Source: Anaerolineae bacterium (GTDB lineage Bacteria > Chloroflexota > Anaerolineae > Anaerolineales > DRMV01). Taken from it: a stretch of 49,494 bases of DNA. Below the pieces are notes generated by a model. The model did no database searches, was not told the DNA's origin, and worked only from the letters and a program-made list of their open reading frames with translations. The translations under genes were made by a program, and so were the position numbers. The stretch lies in NCBI GenBank assembly GCA_011176535.1, contig DUEP01000046.1, positions 1 to 49,494 of the forward strand. The letters run 5' to 3'. Of this stretch, positions 30,061-48,364 are shown one piece after another; position 1 is the stretch's first letter; every line of letters starts with the position of its first letter.

Positions 30061-30080
30061 GGTGGCACCGTGCCATCCAG

Positions 30081-30110
30081 CGGCGGGCTGCGCGACAGCC
30101 CGCCGTTTTT
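30081..30110 (+). terminator. Intrinsic terminator after etfA
   Basis: Perfect 10-bp arms (CGGCGGGCTG/CAGCCCGCCG) with a CGCGA loop are followed by TTTTT. Confidence 0.92.
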
Positions 30111-30180
30111 GTTACGCCCACGCACCGTCCCCTTTTTTAGAGGGCTGGGCGTTTGCGCCCGGCGCACCGTTGGCTGAGGA

Positions 30181-30193
30181 TACGGTATAATCA
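30181..30193 (+). promoter_or_regulatory. Promoter -10 of the AOR gene
   Basis: TACGGTATAATCA contains TATAAT at 30186-30191, 46 bp before the ATG. The same 13 bases recur upstream of the DUF4388 gene (32543-32555). A -35 is not evident. Confidence 0.55.
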
Positions 30194-30237
30194 AACCGCA
30201 GGTGTAACCCTACCCCTCATCAGTCAAGGAGGCTTTT

Positions 30238-32441: not shown

Positions 32442-32477
32442 CGGTGTGGGCGGTTCAGCCGCCCACACCGACTTTTT
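32442..32477 (+). terminator. Intrinsic terminator after the AOR gene
   Basis: Perfect 12-bp arms (CGGTGTGGGCGG/CCGCCCACACCG), a 5-base loop, then AC and five T. Confidence 0.92.
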
Positions 32478-32542: not shown

Positions 32543-32555
32543 GTACGGTATAATC
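32543..32555 (+). promoter_or_regulatory. Promoter -10 for the 32603-49494 gene run
   Basis: The same TACGGTATAATCA block as before the AOR gene, with TATAAT at 32548-32553, gives a leader of about 40 bases. No strong promoter is seen further along the run, though internal ones were not excluded. Confidence 0.55.
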
Positions 32556-32602: not shown

Positions 32603-33421
32603 ATGGGCCTCAAAGGCAACCTGCGCGACTTCAGCATCACGCAACTATTGAACTTGATTAACCTGGCCCGGAAGACCGGCTTGCTTGTCATTCAGGGGCC
32701 CAACGAAAAAGCGGAGGTGTATTTCCGCGAGGGGCGTTTGGCCTATGCCGGGATCAGCGGTGAGGACAACAGTCTGGCCGGTATCCTGTATCGGGGTGGG
32801 AAATTGACCAGGGCGCAATACAATGTACTTCGTCAACGGGCGAGCAACCTCAGCGACAAAGAGTTGGGGTTGTTGCTGGTTAATGCTGGTTACCTGACCC
32901 AACAGGATGTGCTCGATGCGCTAAAAGAGCACTATGTGGCGGTGGTGCGGCGGCTGTTCACCTGGGCCGAAGGATTGTTCTCGTTTGAGCTCCAGGCTCC
33001 TTCGCCCAAAGGAAAGATCTTGACCCGCGTTAGTCTGGAGAATCTAATCATCGAGGGCTCCCGACAGATGCGGGAGTGGGAGCGCCTGCAAGACGAGATC
33101 CCCAGCTTGGAGATGGCGTTGAAGTTCACCGAGCGTCCGGGGACGAATCTGCGCAATCTCAACCTGAGTGTGGAAGAGTGGCGGGTGATTTCCCTGGTCA
33201 ACCCCAAGAACAGCCTGCGCCAGATTATGAGGGCCACGAAGATGAATGAATTGGAGATTCGGCGCATTGTGTACGGCTTGCTTCAGGCGGGCATCGTCGA
33301 ACTCGTCCGCCCGGAGGGTTATGCTCCCCCGAAGCCCATCAAACCGGCTTTGGCTGATGTAAAGCCCGAAGAACGGCGCTCGCTGGTGAATCGGCTCATT
33401 GAGCGCATTCGCAATCTGTAA
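32603..33421 (+). CDS. DUF4388 (PATAN-type) signalling protein
   Basis: This 272-residue protein begins with a DUF4388 domain: MGLKGNLRDFSITQLLNLIN, KTGLLVIQG, YFREGRLAYAGI, ELGLLLVNAGYLTQQDVLDAL and the closing VVRRLFTWAEGLFSFE (residues about 1-130). The C-terminal half carries a winged-helix-like segment (NPKNSLRQIMRATKMNELEI, then RRIVYGLLQAGIVELV). Such proteins work with MglA-like GTPases and two-component systems; the GTPase gene follows 15 bp downstream. A ribosome site at the ATG is weak, so the start has some uncertainty. Confidence 0.82.
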   Translation: MGLKGNLRDFSITQLLNLINLARKTGLLVIQGPNEKAEVYFREGRLAYAGISGEDNSLAGILYRGGKLTRAQYNVLRQRASNLSDKELGLLLVNAGYLTQQDVLDALKEHYVAVVRRLFTWAEGLFSFELQAPSPKGKILTRVSLENLIIEGSRQMREWERLQDEIPSLEMALKFTERPGTNLRNLNLSVEEWRVISLVNPKNSLRQIMRATKMNELEIRRIVYGLLQAGIVELVRPEGYAPPKPIKPALADVKPEERRSLVNRLIERIRNL

Positions 33422-33436
33422 AGGTGAGAGGTCCTT

Positions 33437-33970
33437 ATGCAGACGGTAAAAATTGTGATCACCGGGCCCTTTAACTCCGGCAAAACCTCGTTCATTCAGA
33501 CCGTGAGTGAAATCGATGTGGTCGCCACGGAGCGCAAAATCACAAGCGAGTCCGAGCGGGTCAAAGAAACCACCACCGTGGCCATGGATTTTGGCCGCAT
33601 CACTGTGGACGACGACCTGGTGCTCTACCTCTTCGGCACCCCTGGCCAGAAGCGGTTCGACTTCATGTGGGAGATTCTCTCCGAAGGGATGCTGGGCTTT
33701 GTGGTCATGGTGGACAGCACCCGGCCGGAGACCTTCTATGAGGCGCGGTCCATTTTGGAAACCTTCCGCGCTTATGCGCCCACGCCTTATGTGGTTGCGG
33801 CGAACAAGCAGGACATGCCCGACGCCTGGGATATCGACGACATGCGCATTGCCTTGCGCCTGTCCAAGGAGGTGAAACTCCTTCCTTGTGTGGCCACCGA
33901 CAAGGAATCGGTGAAGCGGGTGCTGTTGGAGTTGTTGTACAGCATTCTGGCCGAAATGGACGCCAGGTAA
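33437..33970 (+). CDS. MglA/CvnD-like small Ras-family GTPase
   Basis: This 177-residue GTPase has G1 GPFNSGKT (10-17), a Thr-rich switch I (KETTTVAMDFGRIT), G3 GTPGQ (67-71) and G4 NKQD (123-126). The P-loop glycine and switch residues match the bacterial family seen in gliding motility and in actinobacterial conservons, usually controlled by roadblock or DUF4388-type partners. Its length is that of the bare G domain. It likely acts with the DUF4388 gene before it as a molecular switch for the downstream kinase system. Confidence 0.9.
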   Translation: MQTVKIVITGPFNSGKTSFIQTVSEIDVVATERKITSESERVKETTTVAMDFGRITVDDDLVLYLFGTPGQKRFDFMWEILSEGMLGFVVMVDSTRPETFYEARSILETFRAYAPTPYVVAANKQDMPDAWDIDDMRIALRLSKEVKLLPCVATDKESVKRVLLELLYSILAEMDAR

Positions 33971-34002
33971 GCCGCATAGAAACCTTGCATCTGGGAGCAG
34001 CC

Positions 34003-34812
34003 GTGTCCTCCATCACCACCGATCAAGGCATTGTGCACTATGAAGTCTTCGGCCGCGGCCGACCAGTGATTTTGTTGCATGGTTGGCTGGGTTCGTGGGG
34101 GCTGTGGCAGGAGACCATGGCTTATTTGGGCCGCTATTATCGGACTTATGCGTTGGATTTTTGGGGCTTTGGCGAATCGGGCAAAAAGCGGGAATCCTAC
34201 CGGGTCTCCGATTTTGTGAGCCTGGTTCAGCAGTTTATGGATCAATTGGGCATTGTCCGGGCCCCCCTGGTCGGCCACAGCATGGGAGGGACGGTGGCCC
34301 TCAGCGTGGCCATTCAGTACCCCCAACTGGTGAGCCGGGTGGTGGTCATCGGTTCGCCCATCGTGGGCTCTTCCCTGGCATTGACCCTCAAACTGGCCGG
34401 GTATCGCCCTATTGCCTGGCTGGTGTACCATTGGATGTGGGTCCTGAAACAGGGCATCCGGCTTTTTGCGCCGATGATCACGCGAGATGAGCGCTGGCCG
34501 GAGATGATGGATCGGGACCTCTCCCAGGTCACCCTGGAATCCTTCTTGCACAGCATCGCTTCCCTGCGTCAGGTGGATTTGCGGCCCTTCCTCGCCCAGA
34601 TTCGGGTGCCCGTGATGGGCATGTACGGCGATCGGGATGTGATCGTCCATCCCCGGCAGTGGGTTTCTTTGAAAGCCGGTGTGCCCCATGCGCGCATCGA
34701 ACGCTTTCCCGATGCCGGACACTTCATCATGCTGGACGCTCCCAAACGCTTCATGCGCCTCCTGCACACCTTCCTCGATGAAACCCGAACCGTGCCGCGA
34801 TACACACGATGA
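34003..34812 (+). CDS. Alpha/beta hydrolase, active-site residues intact
   Basis: This 269-residue protein has the alpha/beta-hydrolase fold: oxyanion HGW (26-28), nucleophile elbow GHSMGG with S93, acid in YGDRDVIVHP and histidine in DAGHFIMLD. A cap region lies at about 130-190. The start is GTG 34003 (GGGAG 5 bp upstream). A clear paralogue at 45983 has the same first 100 residues in register, but with Gly for S93. The substrate is unknown; ester or epoxide cleavage is typical for such proteins. Confidence 0.87.
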   Translation: MSSITTDQGIVHYEVFGRGRPVILLHGWLGSWGLWQETMAYLGRYYRTYALDFWGFGESGKKRESYRVSDFVSLVQQFMDQLGIVRAPLVGHSMGGTVALSVAIQYPQLVSRVVVIGSPIVGSSLALTLKLAGYRPIAWLVYHWMWVLKQGIRLFAPMITRDERWPEMMDRDLSQVTLESFLHSIASLRQVDLRPFLAQIRVPVMGMYGDRDVIVHPRQWVSLKAGVPHARIERFPDAGHFIMLDAPKRFMRLLHTFLDETRTVPRYTR

Positions 34813-35357
34813 CCTCTTCCTCTTATGAGGCCTGTTGGGCTCAGGCCCTGGTCGAAACCTTAGGCGAAGAAGCCGCCCAGCGTTTCTGGTCCTCTCTGGC
34901 CCCTGTGGAGCCCCACGCCATTGCGGTCACATTGGGGCAGGCATTGGAACGGCATTTTGGCCGCCATGCCGGGCTGGGGGTGGCCGTGCGGGTGGGGCAG
35001 GCCTTGTTTCGCCACCTGCCGGCGTTGCACCCCCGCGCGGCCGATTTGCCGTGGCGGATGCTGCCGGTGCGGCAGCGGGTGCTCCAGGGGCTGACCTGGC
35101 TGCTCCGCGAGATCACCCCTGCGTTGGGGCTGGAGGCTCGGGTGGACGCCTCCGGAGCAGGGTGGTCGGTCGAGGCCCGTTGGCGTGTATCGGGAACCCC
35201 CTCGGCCACCGCGCCGCGTTGTCGCCTCTGGCAGGGCTTCTTTCAGGAGGCGCTCTACTGGCTGACGGGCCGGGTGTACCCTGTGTTTCTCCAGACCACC
35301 CAGGCGGAGGGCGAAGAACGGTGCACCTTTTTTGTCCCTGCTCAGCCTTTGTACTGA
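34809..35357 (+). CDS. Unknown protein (182 aa), V4R-like C-terminus suspected
   Basis: The ATG overlaps the hydrolase stop (ATGA), so the two are coupled. The protein is helical and hydrophobic/basic. The C-terminal stretch (FFQEALYWLTGRVYPVFLQT, then EGEERCTFFV) has the rhythm of the end of V4R/heme-NO-binding-like domains (a helix, then a strand with E and C). This is weak evidence and I do not assign a function. It may bind a hydrophobic ligand and report to the kinase system. Confidence 0.6.
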   Translation: MTSSSYEACWAQALVETLGEEAAQRFWSSLAPVEPHAIAVTLGQALERHFGRHAGLGVAVRVGQALFRHLPALHPRAADLPWRMLPVRQRVLQGLTWLLREITPALGLEARVDASGAGWSVEARWRVSGTPSATAPRCRLWQGFFQEALYWLTGRVYPVFLQTTQAEGEERCTFFVPAQPLY

Positions 35358-35370
35358 TTGAGAGCCGGAA

Positions 35371-36654
35371 ATGCTGAAGATCATCGTCCACGAACCGCGC
35401 CCCATCGCCCCCTTCAACGAGCCCGCGCGTGACCTGCGCATCCAGAATAAGCCCCTCTGGCTGGCCCAGCGGGACGCGCTCACGCCTTACACTGACCGAG
35501 AAATCGAGGTCACCGTCGGGTTGCCTCTGCCGGAAGTGCGGGACGAATGTCTGGTCTATCGCGACAACCTGTATTTCGACGAATTCTACATTGACGCGTT
35601 CATTCGAGAGGCGCGGCGGCGCAATTATCCGGTGCGGGCCGCGTTTGCGGCGAACGATCCGGCCTTCCGGGAACACGCACTGCCGCTCTCCATTTCCTAC
35701 ATCCCCTACGGTGACCTCTACCTGGCCGATCTGTGGTATTACCCCCGGGGGCTGGACCCCCATGTGGAGCCTGAACCCCTGGTCATCGACCTTCAGGCCC
35801 GGGAAATTGGCTACTACCATGTCCCTACCTACATGGCCACCGAGCAGGGCGACCTGGTGTTCCAGGTGCCCTTGCGCGCGTTGATTGCCATCGACTCCTG
35901 GGTGCACATTTTCATCGCCGATGTGGTCTTTGGCCTTTTCGCCCGGGGGGCGCGCTTTGAGGAGCGGCTGAACCGTGACCCATTTTTCAAGTTGAAAATT
36001 TTGGGAAAGGCCCTCTACGAGGGGAAGCAGGTTTTGGAAAGTTCGGAGTTGGTTAAGGTCGGGCGTAATGTGGTGATCGACCCCTCGGCGGTGATTCATG
36101 GGCCGACCATCATCGGCGACAATGTGACCATTGGCGCCGGGGCGGTGATTGACAACTGCGTCATCGGCAGCAATGTGAACATCTCGCAGGGTGTGCAGTT
36201 GATGCTTTCCGTGATCGGAGACGGCGCCTTTTTGCCCTTCCGTGCGGCGTTGTTCATGACCACCCTGATGGACAACAGTATGGTGGCGCAGAACACCTGC
36301 CTACAAATGTGTGTGGTGGGCCGCAATACCTTCATCGGCGCGGGTACCACTTTCACCGATTTCAATCTGGTCTCGGCGCCCATCAAAGCCCGGGATGGGT
36401 ATGGCCGATTGAAGGATGCCAATCGCCCGGTGCTGGGCGGATGCGTCGGGCACAATTGCCGGTTGGGGTCCGGCCTGGTGGTGTATCCGGCACGCATGAT
36501 CGAATCTGATGTGGTGTTGGTGGCATCGCCGGAGCGGCGGGTCATCATGAAGGATATTTCCTATGAGGAGAGCGATCACCATCGGCTGCGGGAGGGGCAT
36601 CGGCATCCGCGCCTTTATCCTCGTCCGGGCGAGGAAGGCGGCGAGACCTGGTGA
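35371..36654 (+). CDS. Left-handed beta-helix (hexapeptide repeat) protein
   Basis: The first 210 residues of this 427-residue protein resemble nothing I can name, though an enzyme-like layout with many aromatic residues is seen. From about residue 230 a hexapeptide repeat domain begins: VVIDPSAVIHGPTIIGDNVT, IGAGAVIDNCVIGSNVNISQ and later VGRNTFIGAGTTFTD. This is the fold of acyl- or nucleotidyltransferases such as GlmU, but the nucleotide-binding motif of GlmU is not present. A sugar or acyl transfer role is possible. The C-terminal tail is basic and low in structure. It lies 15 bp before the AAR-like gene. Confidence 0.7.
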   Translation: MLKIIVHEPRPIAPFNEPARDLRIQNKPLWLAQRDALTPYTDREIEVTVGLPLPEVRDECLVYRDNLYFDEFYIDAFIREARRRNYPVRAAFAANDPAFREHALPLSISYIPYGDLYLADLWYYPRGLDPHVEPEPLVIDLQAREIGYYHVPTYMATEQGDLVFQVPLRALIAIDSWVHIFIADVVFGLFARGARFEERLNRDPFFKLKILGKALYEGKQVLESSELVKVGRNVVIDPSAVIHGPTIIGDNVTIGAGAVIDNCVIGSNVNISQGVQLMLSVIGDGAFLPFRAALFMTTLMDNSMVAQNTCLQMCVVGRNTFIGAGTTFTDFNLVSAPIKARDGYGRLKDANRPVLGGCVGHNCRLGSGLVVYPARMIESDVVLVASPERRVIMKDISYEESDHHRLREGHRHPRLYPRPGEEGGETW

Positions 36655-36669
36655 GAGGCAGTACTGCCT

Positions 36670-37776
36670 ATGGACACCTTTGCCTTTATCATCCATCCCA
36701 TTGACCCGAAGCGAGATGTGAGCCGCAAGTTCCCTTTGTTGGGGAAGGTGCTCACCGAAAGGCAAATCGACTTTTTTTCCACCTTCTTCCCCCCGGTTTA
36801 CATTTCGGAGATCACCGGTATCGTCTCTCAGGCCACGGGCAAAGAGATCAAAGGATGGTTTGTGGCCTGCCCGCTGACGCCGCGGCGGATGCTGGAACTC
36901 CCGGAACGGGTGGTGTACCGCAAGATCATCCAGACGGGGCGCATGGCCGAGCGCCTGGGGGCGAAGATTTTGGGCCTGGGGGCCTTCACCTCGGTGGTGG
37001 GGGACGGCGGCGTGACCATTGCCCGGGCCCTGGACATCCCGGTCACCACGGGCGACGCTTACACCGTGGCCGTGGCCGTGGAGGCTCTCCTGGAGGCGGC
37101 CCGTCTGTTGGAGATCACGCTGGCCGAGGTCACGGCGGCGGTGGTGGGGGCCAGCGGCGCCATTGGCCGCGTGGTCGCCGAGATGCTCGCGGAGCGGGTG
37201 GGCGAGATAGTGCTCATTGGCCGCCGACGGGGTGCCCTGGAAGTGGAGCAGGCGCGGCTGCGTGACCTGGGCGTCCCGGCGAGGGTGCACATCAGCACCG
37301 ATATCGCCGACCTGCAGCGGGCGCATCTGGTGGTGACGGTGAGCAGCGCGCTGGACGCCATCGTGGAGCCCCAGCATCTGCGCCCCGGAAGCGTGGTCTG
37401 CGATGTGGCCCGGCCACGGGATGTGTCGGCTCAGGTGGCCGCGGCCCGTGATGATGTGCTGGTAATCGACGGCGGCATGGTGGAGGTGCCCGGCCCGGTG
37501 GACTTTCATTTCGATTTTGGCTTTCCGCCCCGCCACGCTTACGCCTGCATGGCTGAAACCATGGCTTTGGCGCTGGAGGGACGTTTCGAGGATTACACGG
37601 TGGGCAAGCACATCACCCGCGCCCAGGTGGAGGAAATTGTCCGCATTGCCCGCAAGCACGGCTTTCGCCTGAACGGTTTTCGCTCCTTTGAACAACCTGT
37701 TACAATGGAATATATCGCGCGAGTGCGTGAGCGCGCAAAACGCCAGCGCGCCACGCTCAAAAGGAGGCACCCATGA
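36670..37776 (+). CDS. Acyl-ACP reductase-like (AAR-type) NAD(P)-dependent enzyme
   Basis: This 368-residue protein resembles cyanobacterial long-chain acyl-ACP reductase from end to end. It has LGAFTSVVGDGG (near the ALGGFSSIV motif), TTGDAYTVAVAVEAL, the Rossmann turn GASGAIG (160-166), VIDGGMVEVPGPVDF and the active-site strand YACMAETMALALEG. The cysteine C293 falls where I recall the AAR catalytic Cys (294). AAR reduces acyl-ACP to fatty aldehyde with NADPH. I see no aldehyde decarbonylase gene nearby. The N-terminal 60 residues are more divergent. A shikimate-dehydrogenase-like function is the main alternative. Confidence 0.78.
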   Translation: MDTFAFIIHPIDPKRDVSRKFPLLGKVLTERQIDFFSTFFPPVYISEITGIVSQATGKEIKGWFVACPLTPRRMLELPERVVYRKIIQTGRMAERLGAKILGLGAFTSVVGDGGVTIARALDIPVTTGDAYTVAVAVEALLEAARLLEITLAEVTAAVVGASGAIGRVVAEMLAERVGEIVLIGRRRGALEVEQARLRDLGVPARVHISTDIADLQRAHLVVTVSSALDAIVEPQHLRPGSVVCDVARPRDVSAQVAAARDDVLVIDGGMVEVPGPVDFHFDFGFPPRHAYACMAETMALALEGRFEDYTVGKHITRAQVEEIVRIARKHGFRLNGFRSFEQPVTMEYIARVRERAKRQRATLKRRHP

Positions 37777-38669
37777 GTCAACCTCGATTGCTCATCGTGG
37801 AAGACGACCCCGATATCGCCGAATTGCTGAAACTCTACTTTTCCAGCCAGGGCTACGAGGTGGATGTGGCGCCCCGAGGGACGGTCGCTCTGGAGAAGAC
37901 GCGCCAGCAAATGCCGCACCTGATTGTGCTGGACATCATGTTGCCGGATATTGACGGCTATGAAGTGTGCGAGCAGTTGCGCACCAACGTGCGTACGGCG
38001 CACATCCCCATCATCTTTCTCACCCAGAAGGATGAGCGGAGTGACCGTTTGCGAGGGTTGGAGTTAGGCGCCGATGATTACATCACCAAGCCCTTTGACA
38101 TCGAGGAGTTGCGCCTGCGGGTGCAGAACGCCATCATGCGCGCCGAGCGCGAGCGGCTGACCGACCCGCGCTCGGGGTTGCCGGGTGGGCGGCTCATCGA
38201 GGATCACCTGCGACGCATCATCCGCGAGAGCGGCTGGGCCATGATGGACATCCGCATCCTTCACTACGACGCTTTTCGGGATGTCTATGGCTTTGTCGCC
38301 GCCAGCGATGTGCTGCGTTTCATGGCCATGTTGTTGAGTGAGGTGGTGGACGAGTTAGGGACGTCCAACGATTTTCTGGGGCACCCCAGCGAAGAGAATT
38401 TCATCGTCATCACCTCGGAAGAAGCCGCTCCGGCCGTCCGGGCGCGCCTCAAGGAGCGTTTCGACAAAGAGATTCTGACCCATTACAACTTCATCGACCG
38501 GGAGCGGGGATACCTGGTGTTGCCTGATGAATCAGGCGAGGAAACCCAGGTGCCGTTGATGAGCCTGGCCATTGGGGTTGTCTTTTCGTCGCAGTTCGAG
38601 TTTGCCGATATTCGCGAGATCACCGAGTTGGCTGCTGAGGCGCGACGCCGCGATATGGGCGAGGAGTAG
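37773..38669 (+). CDS. Response regulator with a degenerate GGDEF domain
   Basis: The N-terminal receiver of this 298-residue protein has the acidic cluster EDD (10-12), phospho-acceptor D54 (VLDIMLPD), T in FLTQK and the lysine of TKPF. The second half (about 130-298) has the GGDEF fold outline (LTDPRSGLPGGRLIEDHLRR, then FRDVYGF) but the signature loop reads GHPSEENF in place of GG[DE]EF, so it should not make cyclic di-GMP. It may serve as a binding or dimerisation domain. It overlaps the AAR-like gene by 4 bases (ATGA) and precedes the giant kinase by 3 bp. Confidence 0.87.
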   Translation: MSQPRLLIVEDDPDIAELLKLYFSSQGYEVDVAPRGTVALEKTRQQMPHLIVLDIMLPDIDGYEVCEQLRTNVRTAHIPIIFLTQKDERSDRLRGLELGADDYITKPFDIEELRLRVQNAIMRAERERLTDPRSGLPGGRLIEDHLRRIIRESGWAMMDIRILHYDAFRDVYGFVAASDVLRFMAMLLSEVVDELGTSNDFLGHPSEENFIVITSEEAAPAVRARLKERFDKEILTHYNFIDRERGYLVLPDESGEETQVPLMSLAIGVVFSSQFEFADIREITELAAEARRRDMGEE

Positions 38670-38672
38670 TGC

Positions 38673-41600
38673 ATGGGAGGGATGGTTCCCGCAGTTGTGG
38701 GTCTGTGGGTCACGGTGCTGGGAGTGGGGCTGAGCCTGGTGGCGTTGGGTTTGGTGGCGCTGGTGGGCGCCGGTCTGCGCACGGGAGGCGTGCGTTTGCC
38801 GCGTTTCCCGTTGGCCGAGCCTTTGGACCGGGAGGGCGGTTCCCCCTCAGGTGAGGCGGCCGCCGGGGTGCTCTTGCTGCGCCCTGGAGGGCAGGTGGTC
38901 TACGCCAGCACCCAGGCGCGCACCTGGTTTGGCCTGCAACCCGGCGAGCCTCCCCATTTGGAGAACCTGGCCCGCCGGGTTCGCCCTGTAGAGGAGTTTT
39001 TGCGCCTTTGCGCCGTGCCCGGCCAGGGCGAGGTGACCCTGGCCCGGCGGATGTTCACGGTGATTTCCTTCCCCCTGCCCACCGTGGAGGGGGCGGCCAT
39101 GGCCCTCCTCTTGCGCCCGGTTTCCTGGATGCCCGGCGCGTCCTCCGAAGCCTCGGACGGGGAAGCCGTGTTGGAGCGCCTGACCACCTTGAGCCGCGCC
39201 CTGACCGACACCCTGGGCGTGGAGGAGACCCTGCAGGCCATTTTCCAGGTGGTCGATCGTTTGCTCCCCACCGATTACATCGAAATTACGCTCTGGGATG
39301 AGGAAACCCAGACCCTGCGGCCTTATCGCTTTGTAGGGTTGGCCGGGATGGAGCATCATCTGGAGCGCCCTCAGGAACGGTATCCCAGGGGGGAGGGCTT
39401 GACGGGATACCTGATGACCCATCGCGAGCCTCTTCTGATCCCCGACATTCGCCACGCAGAGCATCCGGCCCTGGCGGTTTCGACCCACCGGCTCCCTGCG
39501 GGCGCACGGGCCTACCTGGGCGTGCCTTTGCTCGTGGGGGATACGGTGTTGGGCACTCTGGAGTTGGCCGCCGACGAGGCCGGGGCTTTCGATGTCGGTT
39601 CGTTGCGGCTCATGCAGTGGGTGGCCGAGCAGGCGGCCGCGGCGCTGCACCGCGCCCTGGCGTACACGAAAGTTCAGGCCCAGGTGGAGCAATTGCAGGC
39701 CCAGGTCACCGTGTTGCGCAGCGTGGCGGCCTTGCACGATGCCGAGGCCTTCGTGCGTCATCTGGTGGAAGGTATGCACACCCTGACCGGGGCCCGTTTG
39801 GTGGGGTTGCTGTTGTATCGTGAAGGGAGTCGGGTACTGGAGGCCCAGTGGCCTTTTTTAGGGGTGCCCCGGGCTTTTGTGGACTCGTACCGTGCCCCCC
39901 TCCCCGACGATCCCGCGGTGTGGGCGCCTCTGGAAAAGCCTTTTTGGACGCCGAATGCCGTGGAGGATGCCTGGTTCCAGCGGGTGGGGCTGGCCGACCT
40001 GGCGCGGGGAGCGGGGATTCACGACACCCTGGTCCTGCCCCTGCGCACCGAGGAGCGCTTCCTGGGCGTGTTGCAGTTGAGCAATCGCGCCGACAGGCCC
40101 TTTGGGAGCGAAGACCTGGCGCTGGCCGAGGCGATGGCTCGACAAATCGCGTCGGTGCTGGAGAACTTTGTGTTGCTTCAAGCGCAGCGTGAGCGGGCGT
40201 ACCGTGCCGAGGCCCTGCGCCGGATTGCCAATCTGGTGGCCTCCGAGGCTACCCTGGATGAGACCTTCCGCTTTGTGTTGCAGGAGTTGAGCCGTCTGTT
40301 GAAGGCCTCCTGGGCGGCCGTGTTTCTGCTGGATGAATCCCGCGGCGTGTTGGAGGTGCACCGCCCTTCGGTGGTCGGCGTGGCCCCCGAGGTGGTGACC
40401 CGACTGGGGCAATTGAGCGTGCAGGACCCTTCCTTTGCCTACACGGTCACGCGCACCCGGCGGCCTTTTCTCTCCCGCGACATCCAGGGAGACCCGCGCA
40501 TCGCGGCCTGGTATCGGCCTCTGGTGGAGGCCCTGCCCGAGGTGCGCTCGGTGCTGGTCGTGCCGCTCTCGGTGCGCGACCGGGGGGTGGGGGAGTTGTT
40601 GTTGGGATCGCCGTACCCCGGGGCCTTTCAGCGTAGCGATGTGCAGTTGGTGGCCAGCGTGGCCGGCCAACTGGCCCTGGCCATCGAGCAGGAGCGTTTG
40701 CTACACCAGAGCGACCACGCCCTGGCCGCGCGTGCTGAACAGATGCAGGCTTTGCTGCGCCTGAGCCGCGAGTTGACGCTGGCCCCCTCTCTGGAGCGGC
40801 TGCTGGAACATTTGCGCCGCGAGGTGGTCCACCTGACTGCGGCGGACTGTGCCACCCTGCGCCTGTTGACTCCCGAGGGTGAGGTGGCCGAGCAACATCA
40901 GTTGCTGTGTGCGCCGGAGCAGGACGCCGGGTTGAGCCCTCGCGAGCGGCAGGCGCTGGAGCAGGGCGAGGCGCTGGTGTTTGCCGCATTGACCGAAGAA
41001 GAACAACCCCATCCTGGCGTGCGTTCCGCTTTGGTGGTGCCCCTGGTGTATCGCCATCGCCCGATCGGGGTGCTGGACCTACACGCTCATACGGTGCAGG
41101 CCTTCGACGAGGAACAGATACGTTTTGCCCAGGGCGTGGGCTTGCAGGCAGCCCTGGCCGTGGGGCTTCACCGCGAGCGGGAGGCCCAGGTCCGGCAAAT
41201 GGCCCAATGGCAGCAAAGGCTGGCCGCCATTGGCCTGATTCGCGAGTTCCTGGCTTCCCACCCGGTCTCCGAGTCCCCCGAGGCCTTGTTGCTTGAATTG
41301 ACCGGCCTGGTCATGCAGGGCGTGGGGGCCTCCGGATGGGCGCTCTACGCTTATGACGAGACTTCGGGCATGCTGCTCCCTCTGGGGTCGTCGGAGCCAT
41401 GGGAGGTCCGGCCGGAGCCCCTGGTGTGGGATCGGTTGGCGGCGCATTTGGAGCCAGTGGGAGCCGAGGGAATCTATCGCCTGCCGCCCTCGTTCCGGGC
41501 CGAAGTGCCCTGGCTGGAGGACACATCCCAGGAGCAGACGGCGGCAGGGTGGGTGATGCCCATCCGTTCGGCCGAGAAGGCGTTGTTGGGCGTGGTGATG

Positions 41601-44600
41601 GTACGCCCTCCGGACGAAACGGCGGAGACCTTGGACGCCGTGGGGGCTTCGCTGAGCATGACAGCCCCCGTGTGGGGACTGCTCTTCCAGTGGGCACAGG
41701 TCCATCGCGCCCACCAGGACGCCACCCGCGGACTAGAAGAGGCCTTGCGCCAGACCGAGACGGCGCTCCAGGCGGCCGAGGCGGGCGTGCGGCGCTGGTT
41801 GCACAAGGACCTGGAGCAGATGGTCGATACCAACGCCCTGGCGCGCAGCAAGGAGCGCCTGGAGGTGGCCCTGGCCATCGCCACCATCGTCAACCGGCAG
41901 CCGGATCGCCAGGCAGTGTTCGATGCCCTGGGGCACGAGTTGTTGGAACGCCTGGCCATGGAAGTGGTGGTTGTGGTGGAGCAGGTGGGCGGGCAGTTGC
42001 GCCTGCGGCAGGTGTACGGCACGGTGCCCGAGGGGATCCGGTTGGAGAGCCTTTTGGGGCAGCGCAATCCCATCCCCGAAGCCTTGCGGATGCAACAGGC
42101 CATCTTGATCGGCGATTTGCAGCACGAGGCCACCCCCTGGCAGGACGCGCCTTTGTTGCGGCGTTTGCAGGCCCGCGCGGTGTTGACCCTTCCCATCGGC
42201 ATTGAGGAGCAACCCATGGCAGTGGCCCTGGCCGTTTCGGGCAACTCGCTGCCGCCCTTCTCCAACGAGGATGTGCAGGCGTTCACCTTGCTGGGACGCC
42301 AGGTGGGGATTGCCCTGCAAAACCTGCGCCTGCTCAACGAGGTCACCCGCCGCCTGGAAGAGGTGGATTTGCTGCTGGGCTTCAGCCGGCAACTGGGGGA
42401 ACTGGACCTGGAGCGGCTGTTGAACAATTTGCTGGAAAGCGCCCTGGCGGTCATCCACCGCGCCCACGCCGGGTTTGTCGCCTTGTGGGATGAGCAGCAT
42501 CGCGTGTTGCGCCTCCAGGCGGCCCAGGGCTACGGTTCGCCCGAGGCCTTGGTGGGCGTGGCGCTACCGGTGGAGGGTTTGCTGGGCGAAGCCTTTCGTA
42601 CGGGGCAGGTTCAACGCATCGACGAAGTGGATTTTGTGCGCACTTACCCCTTCGACCAGGAAGCCCTCTTGCGCTATCAGCAGGCCACCTTGAACCGGCT
42701 ACCGGTCTCGGCCTTGATGATCCCCATTGCTTCAGGCGAACAGGTGCTGGGTGTGGTGGTGGTGGAGAACTTCAACACCCTGGCCGCATTTCAGGAGAGC
42801 GACGAAAACCTGCTGCTGGCCCTGGCACGGCAGACGGGCCTGATGCTGGAAAACGCCCGCCTGTTGGAGGATGCGCAAACCCGTGCCGGTCAGTTGCAGG
42901 CCCTGACCAATGTGGCGGCCATCATCACCTCCACCCTGCAGACGGAAGAGGTGGTCGCGTCGCTTTTGCCACAATTGGCCACGGCGCTGCCTTACGATGC
43001 GGCCACGGTGTGGATGCGCGAAGCCGAGGATGTTTTTGTGGTGCAGAATGCCCGGGGCTTCCCCGATGAGGAAGAGCGGCGCGGGGTGCGTGTGGCGCTG
43101 AAGGACAGCGCCCTCTTGCAGGTCATTGTCACCACCGAAGAACCCTTGCTGGTCTCCGATACCCACGAAGACACCAGGTTCCCCTGGCCGGAAGCCTACC
43201 CCTATCGCTCCTGGCTGGGGCTGCCCCTGATTTCCCAAGGGGAAGTGATGGGGGTGATTGTGTTGGAGAAAGCCGAGCCGCGGTTCTTTACCGCGGAACG
43301 GGTGGAAATCGCCCGCACCTTTGCCGCGCAGGCGGCTGCGGCCCTGCAGAACGCCCGTCTGTACGAGGAGAGTTTACACCGCGCGCAGGAACTGCATGAG
43401 CGCACCGCCCGGCTGGAACTGGTGTACTCTTTCACTGCCGAACTGGGCGTCACCCTGAACCCCGAACACATTTTGTCGCTGACCCTGCGGCGCTTGCGCG
43501 AGGCCTTGCCCCTGGAACGCGTCGGGGTGGTGGTGGAGGATCGGGAAGGCCAGTTGACGCTGGTAATGGAGGAGCCAGCCTCGGGGCCGGTGCCGCGCCT
43601 GTTGCCGGCCCTGGAACTGGTGGAGCAGATGGCCGAATCCAAGGGCGTGGTGCTTTCCCTGGACCCTTTGCACGATGAGCGCTTGGCGCCCTGGAGGGAA
43701 GAACTGACCCGCGGTGGGTCGGCCCGGGCGGTGGTGTTGTTCCCGTTAGTGACGCGGGAGATTTTGCACGGCGTGGTGGTTGTCCAGGTGAAGGCGCAGG
43801 CGGCCTTGTCGCCCGCCGAACTGGACCTGGGCCGCACCCTGACGCAACAGGCCGCCGTGGCCTATCAAAACGCGCGCCTGTACGAGGAAATGCGCCGCCT
43901 GACTCAGGAACTGGAGCGTCGGGTGGCCGAGCGCACCCGCGAATTGACCCAGGAGCATCGCCGGGCGCAGATTCTGCTGCGCATCATCACCGAGTTGGCC
44001 AGCAGCCTGGACCTGGATCAGGTGCTCAACCGCACCCTTGATCTGATGAACGAGACCCTGGGCGCCGAACAAAGCACCATCTTGCTGCACCGGCCTGACG
44101 AACGTTACTTCTACCTGCGGGCGGCCCGAGGCTATACCGACTCGCCGCCTCCAGGAGGGCGTCCCACAGCCCTTTCGGTGGAGCAATCCCTGGCCGGATG
44201 GGTATTGCGCCATCGCGAGCCTGTGCTCGTGCCCGATTTACATGACGACCCCCGCTGGAAACCCGGCCCTGAGGGCCTGCCTCCCCATCGCGCGGCCATT
44301 GTGGTGCCTTTGCAGGTGGGCGAGGATGTGCTGGGCGCTTTTTGTCTCTTCCACCGCCAGCCGGGCTATTTCTCCCTGGACCATCTGGATTTGGCCATGG
44401 CCGCGGGGCGGCAGGTGGCCGTGGCCATCAACAACGCCGAGTTGTTCAACCTCATCCGGGATCAGTCCGAACGGTTGGGCCAGGAGGTGCGTCGTCGGGA
44501 GGTGGAGGCCAGCCGCGCCCGCGCCATCCTGGAATCAGTCGCTGACGGGATTGTGGTGACCGATGCCCGGGGCAAGGTCACGCTTTTTAACCCCTCGGCG

Positions 44601-45602
44601 GAGCGCCTGTTGGGGATTGCCGCCGAGCGCATTTTGGGCCAACCCCTGGAGCGGTTTTCCGGTCTCTTTGGTGCCGCGGCCGGGGAATGGCTTTCCAAGG
44701 TGAAGCAGTGGTCCGAGAACCCTGGCCTTTATCAGAGTGGCGAGGTTTACGAGCAGCGTCTGGATCTGGAAGACGGGCGGGTGCTCTCGGTGCGCCTGAC
44801 GCCGGTGTTGACCAGCCGGGAGTTTCTGGGGACGGTCTCGGTGTTTCGGGATATCACCCATCAGGTTGAAGTGGATCGGCTCAAGTCGGAGTTTGTGGCC
44901 ACGGTGAGCCACGAGTTGCGCACGCCCATGACGGCCATCAAGGGATATGTGGAGTTGCTCCTCAAAGGGGTGGCCGGGCCTTTGAACGAGCAGCAGTTGC
45001 GCTTCCTGGAAATCGTCCATACGAACACGGAGCGGCTGAGCAGCCTGGTGAGCGACCTGCTGGATATCTCCCGCATCGAGGCGGGGAAGATCACCTTCGT
45101 GCCCGAGGAGGTGGACCTGGCGGAACTGGTTTCTGAAGTGCTCACCGAAGCCCGACGCCTGGCTGAGGAGGATGGCCGCGCCGTGACCTTTGTCGCCGAG
45201 TTGCCCCCGGACCTGCCGCCGGTCTGGGCCGACCGGGAGCGCCTCTATCAGATTCTGGCCAATCTGGTGGACAACGGCTACCGGTACACGCCGGATGGGG
45301 GACGGGTGCTCGTCCGGGCCCGGCGACAGGGTGAAGAGGTCCAGGTTGATGTGGTGGACAACGGTATCGGTATTCCCCCCGATGAGCAGGAGCGGGTGTT
45401 CGAACGGTTTTACCGGGGTGAGCATCCGTTGGTCATGGCCAGCGCCGGGACGGGGCTAGGCCTGTCCATCGTGCGCACCCTGGTCGAGATGCACGGCGGC
45501 CAGATCTGGGTGGAGAGCGACGGTATCCCCGGAAAAGGAAGCACCTTCTCGTTCACTCTGCCGGTGGCCGAAGGGGGGCGTTTGCCAGCAGAAGGAGGCT
45601 AA
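38673..45602 (+). CDS. Giant hybrid-free histidine kinase with about ten GAF domains
   Basis: This 2309-residue protein has one N-terminal membrane helix (about 5-35) and a PAS-like domain (70-150). By eye ten GAF-type domains follow at roughly 166-330, 345-505, 515-680, 690-845, 850-1010, 1065-1220, 1228-1395, 1405-1570, 1580-1740 and 1765-1930. Then come a PAS (1945-2065), HisKA with the phosphorylated H2080 (VSHELRTP), and HATPase_c with N box NLVDNGYRYTPDGG, G1 DNGIGIP and GTGLGLS. Coiled linkers join the GAFs. It has no C-terminal receiver; the next gene supplies one. Individual ligands are not readable from sequence. Confidence 0.92.
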   Translation: MGGMVPAVVGLWVTVLGVGLSLVALGLVALVGAGLRTGGVRLPRFPLAEPLDREGGSPSGEAAAGVLLLRPGGQVVYASTQARTWFGLQPGEPPHLENLARRVRPVEEFLRLCAVPGQGEVTLARRMFTVISFPLPTVEGAAMALLLRPVSWMPGASSEASDGEAVLERLTTLSRALTDTLGVEETLQAIFQVVDRLLPTDYIEITLWDEETQTLRPYRFVGLAGMEHHLERPQERYPRGEGLTGYLMTHREPLLIPDIRHAEHPALAVSTHRLPAGARAYLGVPLLVGDTVLGTLELAADEAGAFDVGSLRLMQWVAEQAAAALHRALAYTKVQAQVEQLQAQVTVLRSVAALHDAEAFVRHLVEGMHTLTGARLVGLLLYREGSRVLEAQWPFLGVPRAFVDSYRAPLPDDPAVWAPLEKPFWTPNAVEDAWFQRVGLADLARGAGIHDTLVLPLRTEERFLGVLQLSNRADRPFGSEDLALAEAMARQIASVLENFVLLQAQRERAYRAEALRRIANLVASEATLDETFRFVLQELSRLLKASWAAVFLLDESRGVLEVHRPSVVGVAPEVVTRLGQLSVQDPSFAYTVTRTRRPFLSRDIQGDPRIAAWYRPLVEALPEVRSVLVVPLSVRDRGVGELLLGSPYPGAFQRSDVQLVASVAGQLALAIEQERLLHQSDHALAARAEQMQALLRLSRELTLAPSLERLLEHLRREVVHLTAADCATLRLLTPEGEVAEQHQLLCAPEQDAGLSPRERQALEQGEALVFAALTEEEQPHPGVRSALVVPLVYRHRPIGVLDLHAHTVQAFDEEQIRFAQGVGLQAALAVGLHREREAQVRQMAQWQQRLAAIGLIREFLASHPVSESPEALLLELTGLVMQGVGASGWALYAYDETSGMLLPLGSSEPWEVRPEPLVWDRLAAHLEPVGAEGIYRLPPSFRAEVPWLEDTSQEQTAAGWVMPIRSAEKALLGVVMVRPPDETAETLDAVGASLSMTAPVWGLLFQWAQVHRAHQDATRGLEEALRQTETALQAAEAGVRRWLHKDLEQMVDTNALARSKERLEVALAIATIVNRQPDRQAVFDALGHELLERLAMEVVVVVEQVGGQLRLRQVYGTVPEGIRLESLLGQRNPIPEALRMQQAILIGDLQHEATPWQDAPLLRRLQARAVLTLPIGIEEQPMAVALAVSGNSLPPFSNEDVQAFTLLGRQVGIALQNLRLLNEVTRRLEEVDLLLGFSRQLGELDLERLLNNLLESALAVIHRAHAGFVALWDEQHRVLRLQAAQGYGSPEALVGVALPVEGLLGEAFRTGQVQRIDEVDFVRTYPFDQEALLRYQQATLNRLPVSALMIPIASGEQVLGVVVVENFNTLAAFQESDENLLLALARQTGLMLENARLLEDAQTRAGQLQALTNVAAIITSTLQTEEVVASLLPQLATALPYDAATVWMREAEDVFVVQNARGFPDEEERRGVRVALKDSALLQVIVTTEEPLLVSDTHEDTRFPWPEAYPYRSWLGLPLISQGEVMGVIVLEKAEPRFFTAERVEIARTFAAQAAAALQNARLYEESLHRAQELHERTARLELVYSFTAELGVTLNPEHILSLTLRRLREALPLERVGVVVEDREGQLTLVMEEPASGPVPRLLPALELVEQMAESKGVVLSLDPLHDERLAPWREELTRGGSARAVVLFPLVTREILHGVVVVQVKAQAALSPAELDLGRTLTQQAAVAYQNARLYEEMRRLTQELERRVAERTRELTQEHRRAQILLRIITELASSLDLDQVLNRTLDLMNETLGAEQSTILLHRPDERYFYLRAARGYTDSPPPGGRPTALSVEQSLAGWVLRHREPVLVPDLHDDPRWKPGPEGLPPHRAAIVVPLQVGEDVLGAFCLFHRQPGYFSLDHLDLAMAAGRQVAVAINNAELFNLIRDQSERLGQEVRRREVEASRARAILESVADGIVVTDARGKVTLFNPSAERLLGIAAERILGQPLERFSGLFGAAAGEWLSKVKQWSENPGLYQSGEVYEQRLDLEDGRVLSVRLTPVLTSREFLGTVSVFRDITHQVEVDRLKSEFVATVSHELRTPMTAIKGYVELLLKGVAGPLNEQQLRFLEIVHTNTERLSSLVSDLLDISRIEAGKITFVPEEVDLAELVSEVLTEARRLAEEDGRAVTFVAELPPDLPPVWADRERLYQILANLVDNGYRYTPDGGRVLVRARRQGEEVQVDVVDNGIGIPPDEQERVFERFYRGEHPLVMASAGTGLGLSIVRTLVEMHGGQIWVESDGIPGKGSTFSFTLPVAEGGRLPAEGG

Positions 45603-45603
45603 C

Positions 45604-45981
45604 ATGGCGAAAATCGTGATCGCTGAGGACGAACGCGACATCCGCGAGTTGGTGACCTTTACCCTGCAGTTTGCCGGGCATCAGGTGGTGGCCACCAGCA
45701 ACGGCGAGGAGGCCGTCGAGGCGGTGCTGCGGGAACGCCCCGATTTGGTCATCATGGATGTGCGCATGCCGCGCATGACGGGCTACGAAGCCAGCCGCCG
45801 CCTCAAGACCATGCCGGAAACCAAAGATATTCCGGTGGTTTTCCTCTCGGCCAAAGGTCAGGAAGCCGAAGTGCGAGAGGGCTACGAGGCAGGGGCGGTG
45901 GCGTACATCCTCAAGCCGTTCTCGCCCGACGAATTGATCCAACAGGTGGCCGAGATTCTGGGCCAGTTGGGCAAAACATAG
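45604..45981 (+). CDS. CheY-like single-domain response regulator
   Basis: This 125-residue receiver has the acidic pocket ED (8-9), phospho-acceptor D52 (VIMDVRMP), S in FLSAK and K in LKPFSPDEL. It has no output domain, so it acts by protein binding. It starts 1 bp after the kinase stop, with AAGGAGG inside the kinase 3' end, and is the most likely partner of the kinase. Cognate pairing is inferred from adjacency. Confidence 0.93.
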   Translation: MAKIVIAEDERDIRELVTFTLQFAGHQVVATSNGEEAVEAVLRERPDLVIMDVRMPRMTGYEASRRLKTMPETKDIPVVFLSAKGQEAEVREGYEAGAVAYILKPFSPDELIQQVAEILGQLGKT

Positions 45982-45982
45982 C

Positions 45983-46771
45983 ATGAGCGCTATTCTGATC
46001 GAAGACGGTGTGGTGCATTATGAGGTGTTGGGCCGGGGCCGGCCGGTGCTGCTGTTGCACGGCTGGGTGGGCTCGTGGCGGTATTGGATCCCCTCGATGC
46101 AACATGCGGCCATGCGGTTCCGGGCGTATGCCCTGGATTTTTGGGGCTTCGGTGACACCGACCACCTGTCCGAGCGCTACACCGTCAACGCGCAGGTCAC
46201 CCTGGTGGCCCAATTCCTGGACAAACTGGGTATCGGGCGCATCGCCCTGGTGGGGCATGGTTTGGGCGCGCTGGTGGGCATGTTTTTCGCCCGGCGATGG
46301 CCGGAGCGGGTCGAGCGCCTGATGGCCATCGGCCTGCCGGAATCCTACGAGGCCATCTCCGCGCGCCTGCAGCGCGAGGACCTGAAAACGCTGTCCGACT
46401 GGCTGCTGACCCCCACTCCCAGCACCGAAGCCGCCCGAATGGAGGCCCCCAAAGCCGACCCTCAGGCCATCGTGGCCTCTTTAAAAGCCCTGCGCACCAT
46501 GGATGTGGCCGGAGCCTTCGCCAATTTGCAGGTGCCCACCCTGCTGGTTTACGGCTTGAAGGACCCCCTCATTCGTTTGCCTGAGCGCCTCTCGCCGGAG
46601 CAGTTGCCCGAGCATGTGCATGTGATTCCCTTTGAGGCTTCGGGCCATTTCCCCATGCTGGACGAGGGAAGCAAGTTTCATCGCCTGTTGTTCGACTTCC
46701 TCACCCTGGCCCCTGGGGAAAGTCCCCGCAAATTGCAACTCAAAGAAGAATGGAAACGCCGCGTTCGTTGA
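45983..46771 (+). CDS. Alpha/beta-hydrolase paralogue with the nucleophile lost
   Basis: This 262-residue protein aligns from residue 1 with the hydrolase at 34003 (shared VHYEV.GRGRPV.LLHGW.GSW and YALDFWGFG). Its elbow reads GHGLGA: Gly at position 93 where the relative has the catalytic Ser. The acid (YGLKDPL) and histidine (SGHFPMLD) are kept. I checked the codon (GGT at 46258-46260), so the change is in the DNA as given. It is unlikely to be an esterase by the normal mechanism. A ligand-binding or scaffold role for the two-component system is possible. Confidence 0.85.
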   Translation: MSAILIEDGVVHYEVLGRGRPVLLLHGWVGSWRYWIPSMQHAAMRFRAYALDFWGFGDTDHLSERYTVNAQVTLVAQFLDKLGIGRIALVGHGLGALVGMFFARRWPERVERLMAIGLPESYEAISARLQREDLKTLSDWLLTPTPSTEAARMEAPKADPQAIVASLKALRTMDVAGAFANLQVPTLLVYGLKDPLIRLPERLSPEQLPEHVHVIPFEASGHFPMLDEGSKFHRLLFDFLTLAPGESPRKLQLKEEWKRRVR

Positions 46772-47691
46772 GATGGGTCGGATGGGCGGGCCTTTTGTTC
46801 CTGGCCGCTTGCGGGATGCAGGTGGCCGAGCCTGTTTTACCCCCGGCCCCTACCCCCGCCGCCGAGCCTTACCCCTCGGTCACCCCATGGTTTGCGCCTC
46901 TGCTTCCCCTGGCGCCATCTCCCACACCCAGCCCCACGCCGCTCACCTGCTGGACCGCGGGGGGACGCATCGAGAAGCATCGTCTGAATCCCCCGGAGGA
47001 TGTCTGGTCGTTGGATTTTCGGGTGTATCTGCCCCCCTGTTACGACGCCCAACCCGAACGGGCCTACCCCGTCCTTTACCTGATCCACGGGCAGAACTTC
47101 ACCGACGAGCAATGGGACCGCCTGGGCGTGGACGAGACGCTGGATCGGCTCATCCCCACGGGGCAACTGCCCCCGTTTCTGGTGGTCATGCCCCGGGATC
47201 AGGGATGGGATCAGCCCGAAGAGGATGGCTTCGACGAGGCCTTTCTGCACACTCTGATGGCGTGGGTCGAGAGCCACTATCGCACCTTGCCCCAGCGGAA
47301 GTACCGCGCCATCGGTGGGCTTTCGCGGGGGGCGGCCTGGGCCTTGCACATCGGCCTGACCCATTGGGCGTTGTTCGGCGCCATCGGCGGCCATAGCCCG
47401 CCCGTGTTCTGGCGCGACGGCCCGTATGTGGCCGCCTGGCTGGATGCCATTCCGCAGGGCCAGTGGCCGCGCATCTGGCTGGATGTGGGTGACATGGACC
47501 GACAGGAAATCCTCGAATCGGCCCGTTGGTTGGAATCGCTGCTCACGGCCCGGGGCATCCCCCACGAGTGGCACCTTTACACCGGGCGTCACGATGAGGC
47601 GTACTGGTCGGCCCGTGTGGAGGAGTACCTTTTGTGGTATGCTGCTCCCTGGCAGGAGGGATCCCTTCCCGAGGGCGCGATGACGCCGTAG
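46750..47691 (+). CDS. Secreted lipoprotein esterase, enterochelin/feruloyl-esterase-like
   Basis: This 313-residue protein has a signal peptide with lipobox LAAC (C21), a Pro/Thr-rich spacer (25-60), then an esterase D-type hydrolase: YPVLYLIHGQNFTDEQW, the nucleophile GGLSRGAA with S192, an acid in WLDVGDMD and a histidine in YTGRHDEAYW. It is expected to hydrolyse esters outside the membrane. Its start overlaps the preceding gene by 22 bases. The cell-surface location links it to the FW lipoprotein that follows. Confidence 0.85.
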   Translation: METPRSLRWVGWAGLLFLAACGMQVAEPVLPPAPTPAAEPYPSVTPWFAPLLPLAPSPTPSPTPLTCWTAGGRIEKHRLNPPEDVWSLDFRVYLPPCYDAQPERAYPVLYLIHGQNFTDEQWDRLGVDETLDRLIPTGQLPPFLVVMPRDQGWDQPEEDGFDEAFLHTLMAWVESHYRTLPQRKYRAIGGLSRGAAWALHIGLTHWALFGAIGGHSPPVFWRDGPYVAAWLDAIPQGQWPRIWLDVGDMDRQEILESARWLESLLTARGIPHEWHLYTGRHDEAYWSARVEEYLLWYAAPWQEGSLPEGAMTP

Positions 47692-47704: not shown

Positions 47705-48364
47705 ATGAGGCAAAGGATGTTCGTGCTGAGCGGGCTTTTCGCCCTGGTGGGGATGGCGGCGTGTGCGGTTTTCAACCCCGCGGCCACGCCTACCCCGGCG
47801 CTGGAGGCGGTCTATACCGCGGCGGCGCAAACGGTGGTGGCGGTGTTGACCCAAAGCGCGCCGGTCGCCACCTTCACACCGCCCGTCACGCCCACGCCTC
47901 TGCTGGCTAGGACGCCTTCGGCCGCCCCCACGGGAGCGCAAACCGCGACGCCCGCCTCCGAAACGGGAGAGGCCACCCTAAGCCCCACCCCGGCGCCGTG
48001 CCTTCAGGCGGCCTTCGTGCGGGATGTTACCCTGCCCGATGGCACGGTGGTGCAGCCCGGCGGGAAGTTGACCAAAACCTGGCGCCTGCGCAACATCGGT
48101 TCCTGTGCCTGGACGCCGGATTTCCACCTGATTTTCGTCCAGGGCGCTCTGATGAACGCGCCTCTGGAAGTGCCCCTCGGCGTGGTGGTGTTCCCCGGCG
48201 AGGAGGCGGACCTGTCGGTGCCCCTGGTCGCTCCCACCACGCCCGGCACTTACCGCGGGTACTGGCGCTTGCGCAGCGCCGGTGGTGAGGTTTTCGGTGT
48301 GGGGCCGGGGCAACAGCCCTTTTGGGTCGAAATCCGGGTGGTCGCCCCCTCGGCCACACCTTGA
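47705..48364 (+). CDS. Second FW (NBR1-type) domain lipoprotein
   Basis: This 219-residue protein has lipobox GMAAC (C20), a Thr/Pro/Ala linker to about residue 98, and an FW domain to the end (FVRDVTLPDGTVVQPGGKLT, then KTWRLRNIGSCAW and YRGYWRLRSAGGEVFGV). It is shorter than the one at 24194, which has an extra beta-rich C-terminal domain. A surface-binding or structural role is plausible but unproven. It is 13 bp after the esterase, and queG begins 11 bp later. Confidence 0.8.
   Translation: MRQRMFVLSGLFALVGMAACAVFNPAATPTPALEAVYTAAAQTVVAVLTQSAPVATFTPPVTPTPLLARTPSAAPTGAQTATPASETGEATLSPTPAPCLQAAFVRDVTLPDGTVVQPGGKLTKTWRLRNIGSCAWTPDFHLIFVQGALMNAPLEVPLGVVVFPGEEADLSVPLVAPTTPGTYRGYWRLRSAGGEVFGVGPGQQPFWVEIRVVAPSATP

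Follow-up and report, generated by a model that had tools for sequence, protein, structure and literature searches.

A run of ten genes on the plus strand of contig DUEP01000046.1 from an Anaerolineae bacterium (assembly GCA_011176535.1) very probably constitutes one operon that is conserved behind a single promoter across a bacterial order and encodes one signalling system. The run occupies positions 32603-46771 of the analysed stretch of 49,494 nucleotides, hereafter the window, and includes an MglA-like small GTPase and a multi-GAF histidine kinase. We are highly confident that the ten genes form one functional unit; the unit is well supported, its function we infer. The family assignments of the ten proteins were checked with hidden Markov models (HMMs):

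32603-33421, plus strand: DUF4388 (PATAN-type) protein, 272 aa (PF14332, 3.7e-28)
33437-33970, plus strand: MglA-like small GTPase, 177 aa (Ras/Arf-type HMM match; GPFNSGKT, GTPGQ, NKQD)
34003-34812, plus strand: alpha/beta hydrolase ABH1, GTG start (Abhydrolase_1, 1.1e-34; intact GHSMG elbow)
34809-35357, plus strand: V4R-like protein, putative V4R/H-NOX/TRAPP fold, 182 aa (weak V4R match, E 0.0059, below cut-off; fold)
35371-36654, plus strand: LbH protein, 427 aa (N-terminal part like a degenerate sugar nucleotidyltransferase, fold tentative, plus a hexapeptide left-handed beta-helix)
36670-37776, plus strand: AAR/PigE-type acyl-thioester reductase (AAR), 368 aa (AcACP_reductase/PigE-like; catalytic Cys293)
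37773-38669, plus strand: receiver plus degenerate GGDEF protein, REC/ggdef (HMM, orthologue alignment)
38673-45602, plus strand: histidine kinase GAFHK, 2309 aa (one N-terminal hydrophobic stretch, 9 matched GAF domains, PAS, HisKA, HATPase)
45604-45981, plus strand: stand-alone CheY-like receiver (HMM)
45983-46771, plus strand: ABH2, alpha/beta hydrolase fold without nucleophilic Ser (GHGLG; Abhydrolase HMM, orthologue comparison)

The successive gaps between the ten open reading frames are 15, 32, -4, 13, 15, -4, 3, 1 and 1 bp, assuming the GTG start at 34003 for ABH1. The coordinates thus agree with an earlier reading of the sequence alone (the sequence-only reading), which had described ten co-directional genes with gaps of at most 32 bp and two 4-base overlaps.

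Conservation of gene order was assessed in two surveys. Searching 61 genomes for the reductase gave strong matches in 32, and the matched loci on long enough contigs mostly show the complete order DUF4388-MglA-ABH1-V4R-LbH-AAR-REC/ggdef-GAFHK-CheY-ABH2. A scan of GTDB with the LbH protein confirmed 414 relatives, from which 80 loci were kept, all of them (80/80) from Chloroflexota. The gene order recurs throughout Anaerolineales (53 long named loci, GTDB species), and the kept loci include those of the cultured organisms Bellilinea caldifistulae, Anaerolinea thermolimosa, Levilinea saccharolytica, Ornatilinea apprima and Thermanaerothrix daxensis; for A. thermolimosa and Thermanaerothrix, the stretch read showed no continuation of the cluster beyond LbH. 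Each cluster gene is found in 49 to 53 of the 53 long loci, except for V4R (42) and AAR (32), without a single change of strand; the count for ABH2 takes in cross-matches to ABH1. The window's other neighbour genes are located near the cluster in 0-1 of the same 53 loci. Because the cluster genes are retained on one strand while the flanks are not, the arrangement is not a matter of chance. A hydrolase-fold gene is located behind CheY in 47 of the 47 loci long enough to tell, and median junction lengths are 5-36 bp, the exception being a constant 22-bp overlap into a downstream esterase gene in much of the window's family. The search for this gene order in other Chloroflexota, named by the sequence-only reading as a check, therefore left the unit standing: adjacency is conserved across Anaerolineales and the flanks are shuffled. 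Two groups have the block in separate pieces, a genus of the window's family (g2; two contigs, loci L058 and L099), in which the parts are retained, and one other family (f10). Levilinea saccharolytica carries two inverted, 100% identical copies of the cluster on one contig (L123 and L124), possibly an assembly artefact.

The promoter evidence points in the same direction. Requiring at least 11 of the 12 positions of TTGACA/TATAAT within 200 bp upstream of the gene start, a near-consensus sigma-70 promoter is found upstream of DUF4388 in 59 of 67 related loci, with the form TTGAC-N16-18-TATAAT, mostly TTGACGC...CTTGCATGTATAAT; shuffled control sequences gave 0 matches. Among the seven internal genes scanned, MglA is preceded by a match in 2 of 72 cases, and ABH1, LbH, AAR, REC, the kinase and CheY in none. 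Given these 0-2 matches ahead of each gene, conserved internal promoters are not a feature of the operon, and the strong internal promoters that might have divided the run did not appear as a conserved trait ahead of the seven genes. The window's own -35 element is poor, though its -10 box is exact, and the argument therefore leans mainly on the relatives. Beside TATAAT, the promoter spacer of relatives contains a recurrent CTTGCATG/CTTACATG (for example in L155 and L176), possibly a regulator site or a promoter feature of the lineage.

The boundaries of the run in the window are marked by the following features:

32442-32470, plus strand: intrinsic terminator after the upstream gene for aldehyde:ferredoxin oxidoreductase (AFOR), 13-pair stem with 10 G-C pairs, then ACTTTTTGTC; the upstream boundary
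32549-32554, plus strand: -10 box TATAAT of the unit's promoter, exact match in the sequence
46750-47691, plus strand: putative lipoprotein esterase, 22-bp overlap with ABH2
47705-48364: NBR1-Ig-domain protein, follows the esterase

The terminator and the TATAAT box set the run apart from the upstream AFOR gene, which is of the tungsten type and is preceded by EtfB and EtfA (28229-32424 for all three). The terminator and the absence of conservation rule out these genes as members of the unit; AFOR also adjoins the cluster in a second genome of the window's family. The downstream edge has no clear end: the esterase and NBR1-Ig genes extend beyond 46771, and among the loci examined their place beside the cluster is nearly confined to the window's own family.

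The variants of the cluster are informative with respect to its parts. Families f2 and f5, which belong to the window's taxonomic order, share the gene order DUF4388-MglA-V4R-(REC)-HK-CheY, without ABH1, LbH, AAR and ABH2. The full form consists of this set plus ABH1, LbH and ABH2, with AAR placed between LbH and REC. The retention of the shorter set in families that have none of the other four genes points to a signalling core. Elsewhere in the phylum, other families conserve a V4R-LbH-REC-HK block, which is followed by a GHGLG hydrolase in four of the loci read. Three loci (L140, L152 and L184) carry a second V4R gene and a second REC/ggdef homologue upstream of DUF4388, apparently a duplicated mini-module.

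The GTPase shows all motifs of the MglA family, namely G1 (GxxxxGK[ST]), G3 (GQ) and G4 ([NT]KxD). Across 21 orthologues G3 and G4 are strictly conserved and 107 of 177 residues are invariant. MglA of group 1, the Myxococcus xanthus type, is defined by TVPGQ in G3 and an Arg beside the G2 Thr (PMC4316618); GTPGQ and TTT in the window protein exclude this identity and correspond to the type of groups 2-5. No gene for a roadblock (MglB) partner is present in the window's cluster, which hence does not encode an MglA/MglB system; two roadblock genes are located elsewhere in the genome. Adjacent roadblock genes occur only in a distant locus (L229, 5703-11563, oriented) with the order DUF4388-MglA-roadblock-roadblock-V4R-LbH-hydrolase-roadblock, which brings GTPase, roadblock and Bet3-related folds together.

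The protein between ABH1 and LbH is a divergent member of the V4R/H-NOX/TRAPP fold, as judged from its predicted structure and its orthologues. The sequence-only reading had listed it as a small unknown; the gene is present as described, but the fold had been missed. The window protein scores 17.1 bits, short of the PF02830 gathering score of 31 bits, but among 29 orthologues 20 reach E<=0.01 with the Pfam V4R model (best 2e-13). The AlphaFold2 model (pLDDT, the predicted local distance difference test, 88.7) finds H-NOX as nearest match in Foldseek (E 5e-6), followed by MopR (2.9e-3) and TRAPPC3 (5.3e-3), and also matches the V4R sensor PoxR. A profile search of the PDB with the V4R alignment gave chance-level matches only, so the assignment rests on the fold and the Pfam matches of orthologues. 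A haem-binding H-NOX identity is ruled out, since no His is invariant or nearly invariant in the 29 orthologues. The fold of this protein tells more about the mechanism than the reductase does.

The kinase ranges from 911 to 2668 aa across orthologues, with 3 to 10 GAF matches (three examined by Pfam), and retains its H-box in all complete orthologues; both receivers, CheY and the REC domain of REC/ggdef, keep their aspartates. The REC/ggdef protein is not a diguanylate cyclase: GG[DE]EF is absent, with GHPSEENF at the aligned position, and the motif is degenerate in all orthologues as well. ABH2 has likewise lost its nucleophilic Ser in 23 of 23 orthologues, where the elbow residue is Gly (20), Asp (2) or Ala (1). 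The sequence-only reading was right to call both the GGDEF domain and this hydrolase dead. The GHGLG elbow is also present in four distant loci. This loss, together with about 35% identity to ABH1, suggests that ABH2 is an old duplicate of ABH1 turned pseudoenzyme. ABH1 itself has a GHSMG elbow in 21 of 22 orthologues (none was found in the remaining one) and is apparently catalytically competent, judging by its sequence. A precedent of the RsbQ/karrikin type for hydrolase-fold receptors was not found in the open-access literature.

The reductase matches PigE (4ppm, 1.1e-37) and cyanobacterial AAR (6jzq, 4e-27). Cys293 aligns with the catalytic Cys of both and is invariant in 29 of 29 orthologues, and G160, G163 and G166 are invariant among 16 aligned orthologues; catalytic Cys and nucleotide-binding glycine motif together place the protein in the AAR/PigE superfamily of acyl-thioester reductases, and it appears catalytically competent. 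Its scores are 112 bits against the TIGR04058 acyl-ACP reductase equivalog cut-off of 449.7 bits, and 213.8 of 850 for the PigE model. AAR is the most dispensable member of the cluster: its presence changes 11 times on the LbH tree, at least 7 times on starred branches, and cultured Anaerolineaceae lack it, with a clean LbH-to-REC junction. Other families of the class also have loci with AAR in this place, which makes repeated loss the simpler explanation. Cluster-type AAR is found in 29 of 38 LbH-positive and in 0 of 23 LbH-negative genomes (Fisher p 8e-10, with genomes that are not phylogenetically independent). No aldehyde-deformylating oxygenase (ADO) is encoded in the window's genome, which rules out alkane synthesis by AAR and ADO. 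The earlier proposal of one pathway coupling fatty aldehyde chemistry to sensing therefore holds with respect to one conserved unit, and is weakened in its aldehyde part by the dispensable AAR and the missing ADO. We note that Chloroflexia-type genomes contain an AAR homologue (about 44%) unlinked to the cluster (G174:C1:4438956-4440044 and similar), within open frames of about 690-770 codons that possibly represent a fusion.

As a mechanism we tentatively propose, at somewhat less than even chances for the scheme as a whole, a kinase/receiver/GTPase switch that is tuned by a hydrophobic ligand and acts on motility or polarity. The multi-GAF kinase with its single hydrophobic stretch would sense an internal small-molecule signal and phosphorylate CheY and the REC/ggdef protein. 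The receivers and the DUF4388 protein would set the nucleotide state or the location of the MglA-like GTPase, the switch behind the output, for which polarity or type IV pilus/surface motility is the likeliest candidate. A hydrophobic ligand (acyl or aldehyde), bound by V4R and perhaps also by the dead hydrolase ABH2 as a receptor, would tune the switch, and ABH1, plus AAR where present, might make or destroy this ligand. An output in motility or polarity is probable by analogy: PATAN proteins adjoining MglA are already known (PMC4316618), PATAN response regulators of cyanobacteria act on the type IV pilus motor (PMC7690835), and two T2SSE-family ATPases score above cut-off in the window's genome. 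Several points weigh against this scheme. The receiver with a dead GGDEF domain offers no obvious output; most Chloroflexia-type loci read show no linkage of MglA to the LbH-REC-HK block; and the precedents for a motility output come from other phyla. Because some loci have no detectable V4R gene and many lack the reductase, the ligand part cannot be essential everywhere. A more specific, TRAPP-like version appears improbable: here the operon's own enzymes would make an acyl or aldehyde ligand for the V4R (Bet3-fold) protein, which would itself set the nucleotide state of the neighbouring GTPase by direct action, under the multi-GAF phosphorelay and with the dead hydrolase as second ligand receptor.

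Alternatively, the cluster might be an operon for biosynthesis and quality control of envelope lipids or glycolipids, with LbH, AAR and the hydrolases making or editing a membrane lipid, and kinase, receivers and GTPase merely regulating or localising them. LbH is among the most conserved cluster members and its helix part resembles GlmU/LpxA-type enzymes, AAR retains Cys293 and ABH1 its nucleophile. However, GTPase, V4R, kinase and CheY persist in families f2 and f5, which have neither LbH and AAR nor the two hydrolases; AAR is dispensable, and the N-terminal part of LbH has no canonical nucleotidyltransferase signature. We consider this explanation rather unlikely. The structure model of LbH is poor (pLDDT 56), and its Foldseek matches, all to nucleotidyltransferases, are weak. 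A self-regulated pathway for fatty aldehydes or alkanes, towards which the emphasis of the sequence-only reading pointed, with AAR as the core enzyme and the upstream AFOR as an aldehyde sink, is very unlikely indeed: the reductase is of the AAR/PigE type with a conserved catalytic Cys and the AFOR gene is only about 180 bp upstream in the window, yet many loci with this operon have no AAR, the genome has no ADO, and AFOR is cut off by the terminator and adjoins the cluster in only 1 of the 53 long related loci.

It may also be asked whether there is a common pathway at all, as vertical inheritance with slow rearrangement could have kept together two or more independent modules (DUF4388-MglA-ABH1, LbH-AAR and REC-HK-CheY-ABH2). 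The split blocks in g2 and f10 are in line with such an arrangement, as is the location of MglA elsewhere in most Chloroflexia-type genomes read. But the block holds together where its flanks are shuffled, only one promoter is conserved, and cluster-type AAR is confined to LbH-positive genomes; independent modules are accordingly a doubtful explanation, and we retain one signalling unit.

Prokaryotic Ras-like GTPases are widespread and few have a known pathway; for one of them the operon supplies a large, fixed set of surrounding parts that has long been conserved. Finding a V4R/Bet3-fold protein encoded next to a small GTPase in bacteria makes it directly testable whether the control of GTPases by such proteins predates eukaryotic TRAPP, and the conserved dead hydrolase and the dispensable reductase provide natural controls. 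Chloroflexota are a phylum of filamentous, often gliding bacteria, in which the control of motility is, to our knowledge, largely unknown.

No paper describing this gene set and order was found in the open-access literature, and within that scope the statement of the sequence-only reading, which knew of no such described system, stands. Individual elements are already known: MglA beside PATAN, the homology of V4R and Bet3, and modules of kinase and GTPase such as the conservon. The survey of Wuichet and Sogaard-Andersen 2014 (PMC4316618) lists Chloroflexi among the carriers of MglA groups 1 and 5 and reports variable neighbourhoods for groups 1, 4 and 5. It shares with the window a GTPGQ-type (groups 2-5) MglA beside a PATAN/DUF4388 gene; no mention of V4R was found in its text, and it describes no ten-gene operon of fixed order that combines V4R, LbH, AAR, a dead hydrolase and a multi-GAF kinase. 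The actinobacterial conservon (CvnA kinase, CvnB roadblock, CvnC, CvnD GTPase) likewise encodes a histidine kinase together with an MglA-family GTPase, whereas the window's cluster, which is not a conservon, has no roadblock (CvnC was not searched for), contains V4R, LbH, reductase and hydrolases in addition, and includes phosphorelay receivers inside the operon. Cyanobacterial AAR and the PigE reductase domain share the aligned catalytic Cys and the nucleotide-binding region with the window's reductase, which remains far below both curated cut-offs and comes without ADO and without a PigE-type aminotransferase domain. In TRAPP, subunits of the Bet3 fold and others related to roadblock and longin act on Rab GTPases. 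V4R-Bet3 homology (PMC2253512) and Asgard proteins (PMC10933270) have been described in this context, and the cluster resembles TRAPP in encoding a V4R-fold protein beside a Ras-like GTPase, with roadblock genes inserted between the two in L229; the window's V4R protein, however, is closest in fold to H-NOX and PoxR/MopR, with TRAPPC3 a weaker match. Compared with these systems, what is new is a small-GTPase signalling module whose set of parts is unusual and strongly conserved.

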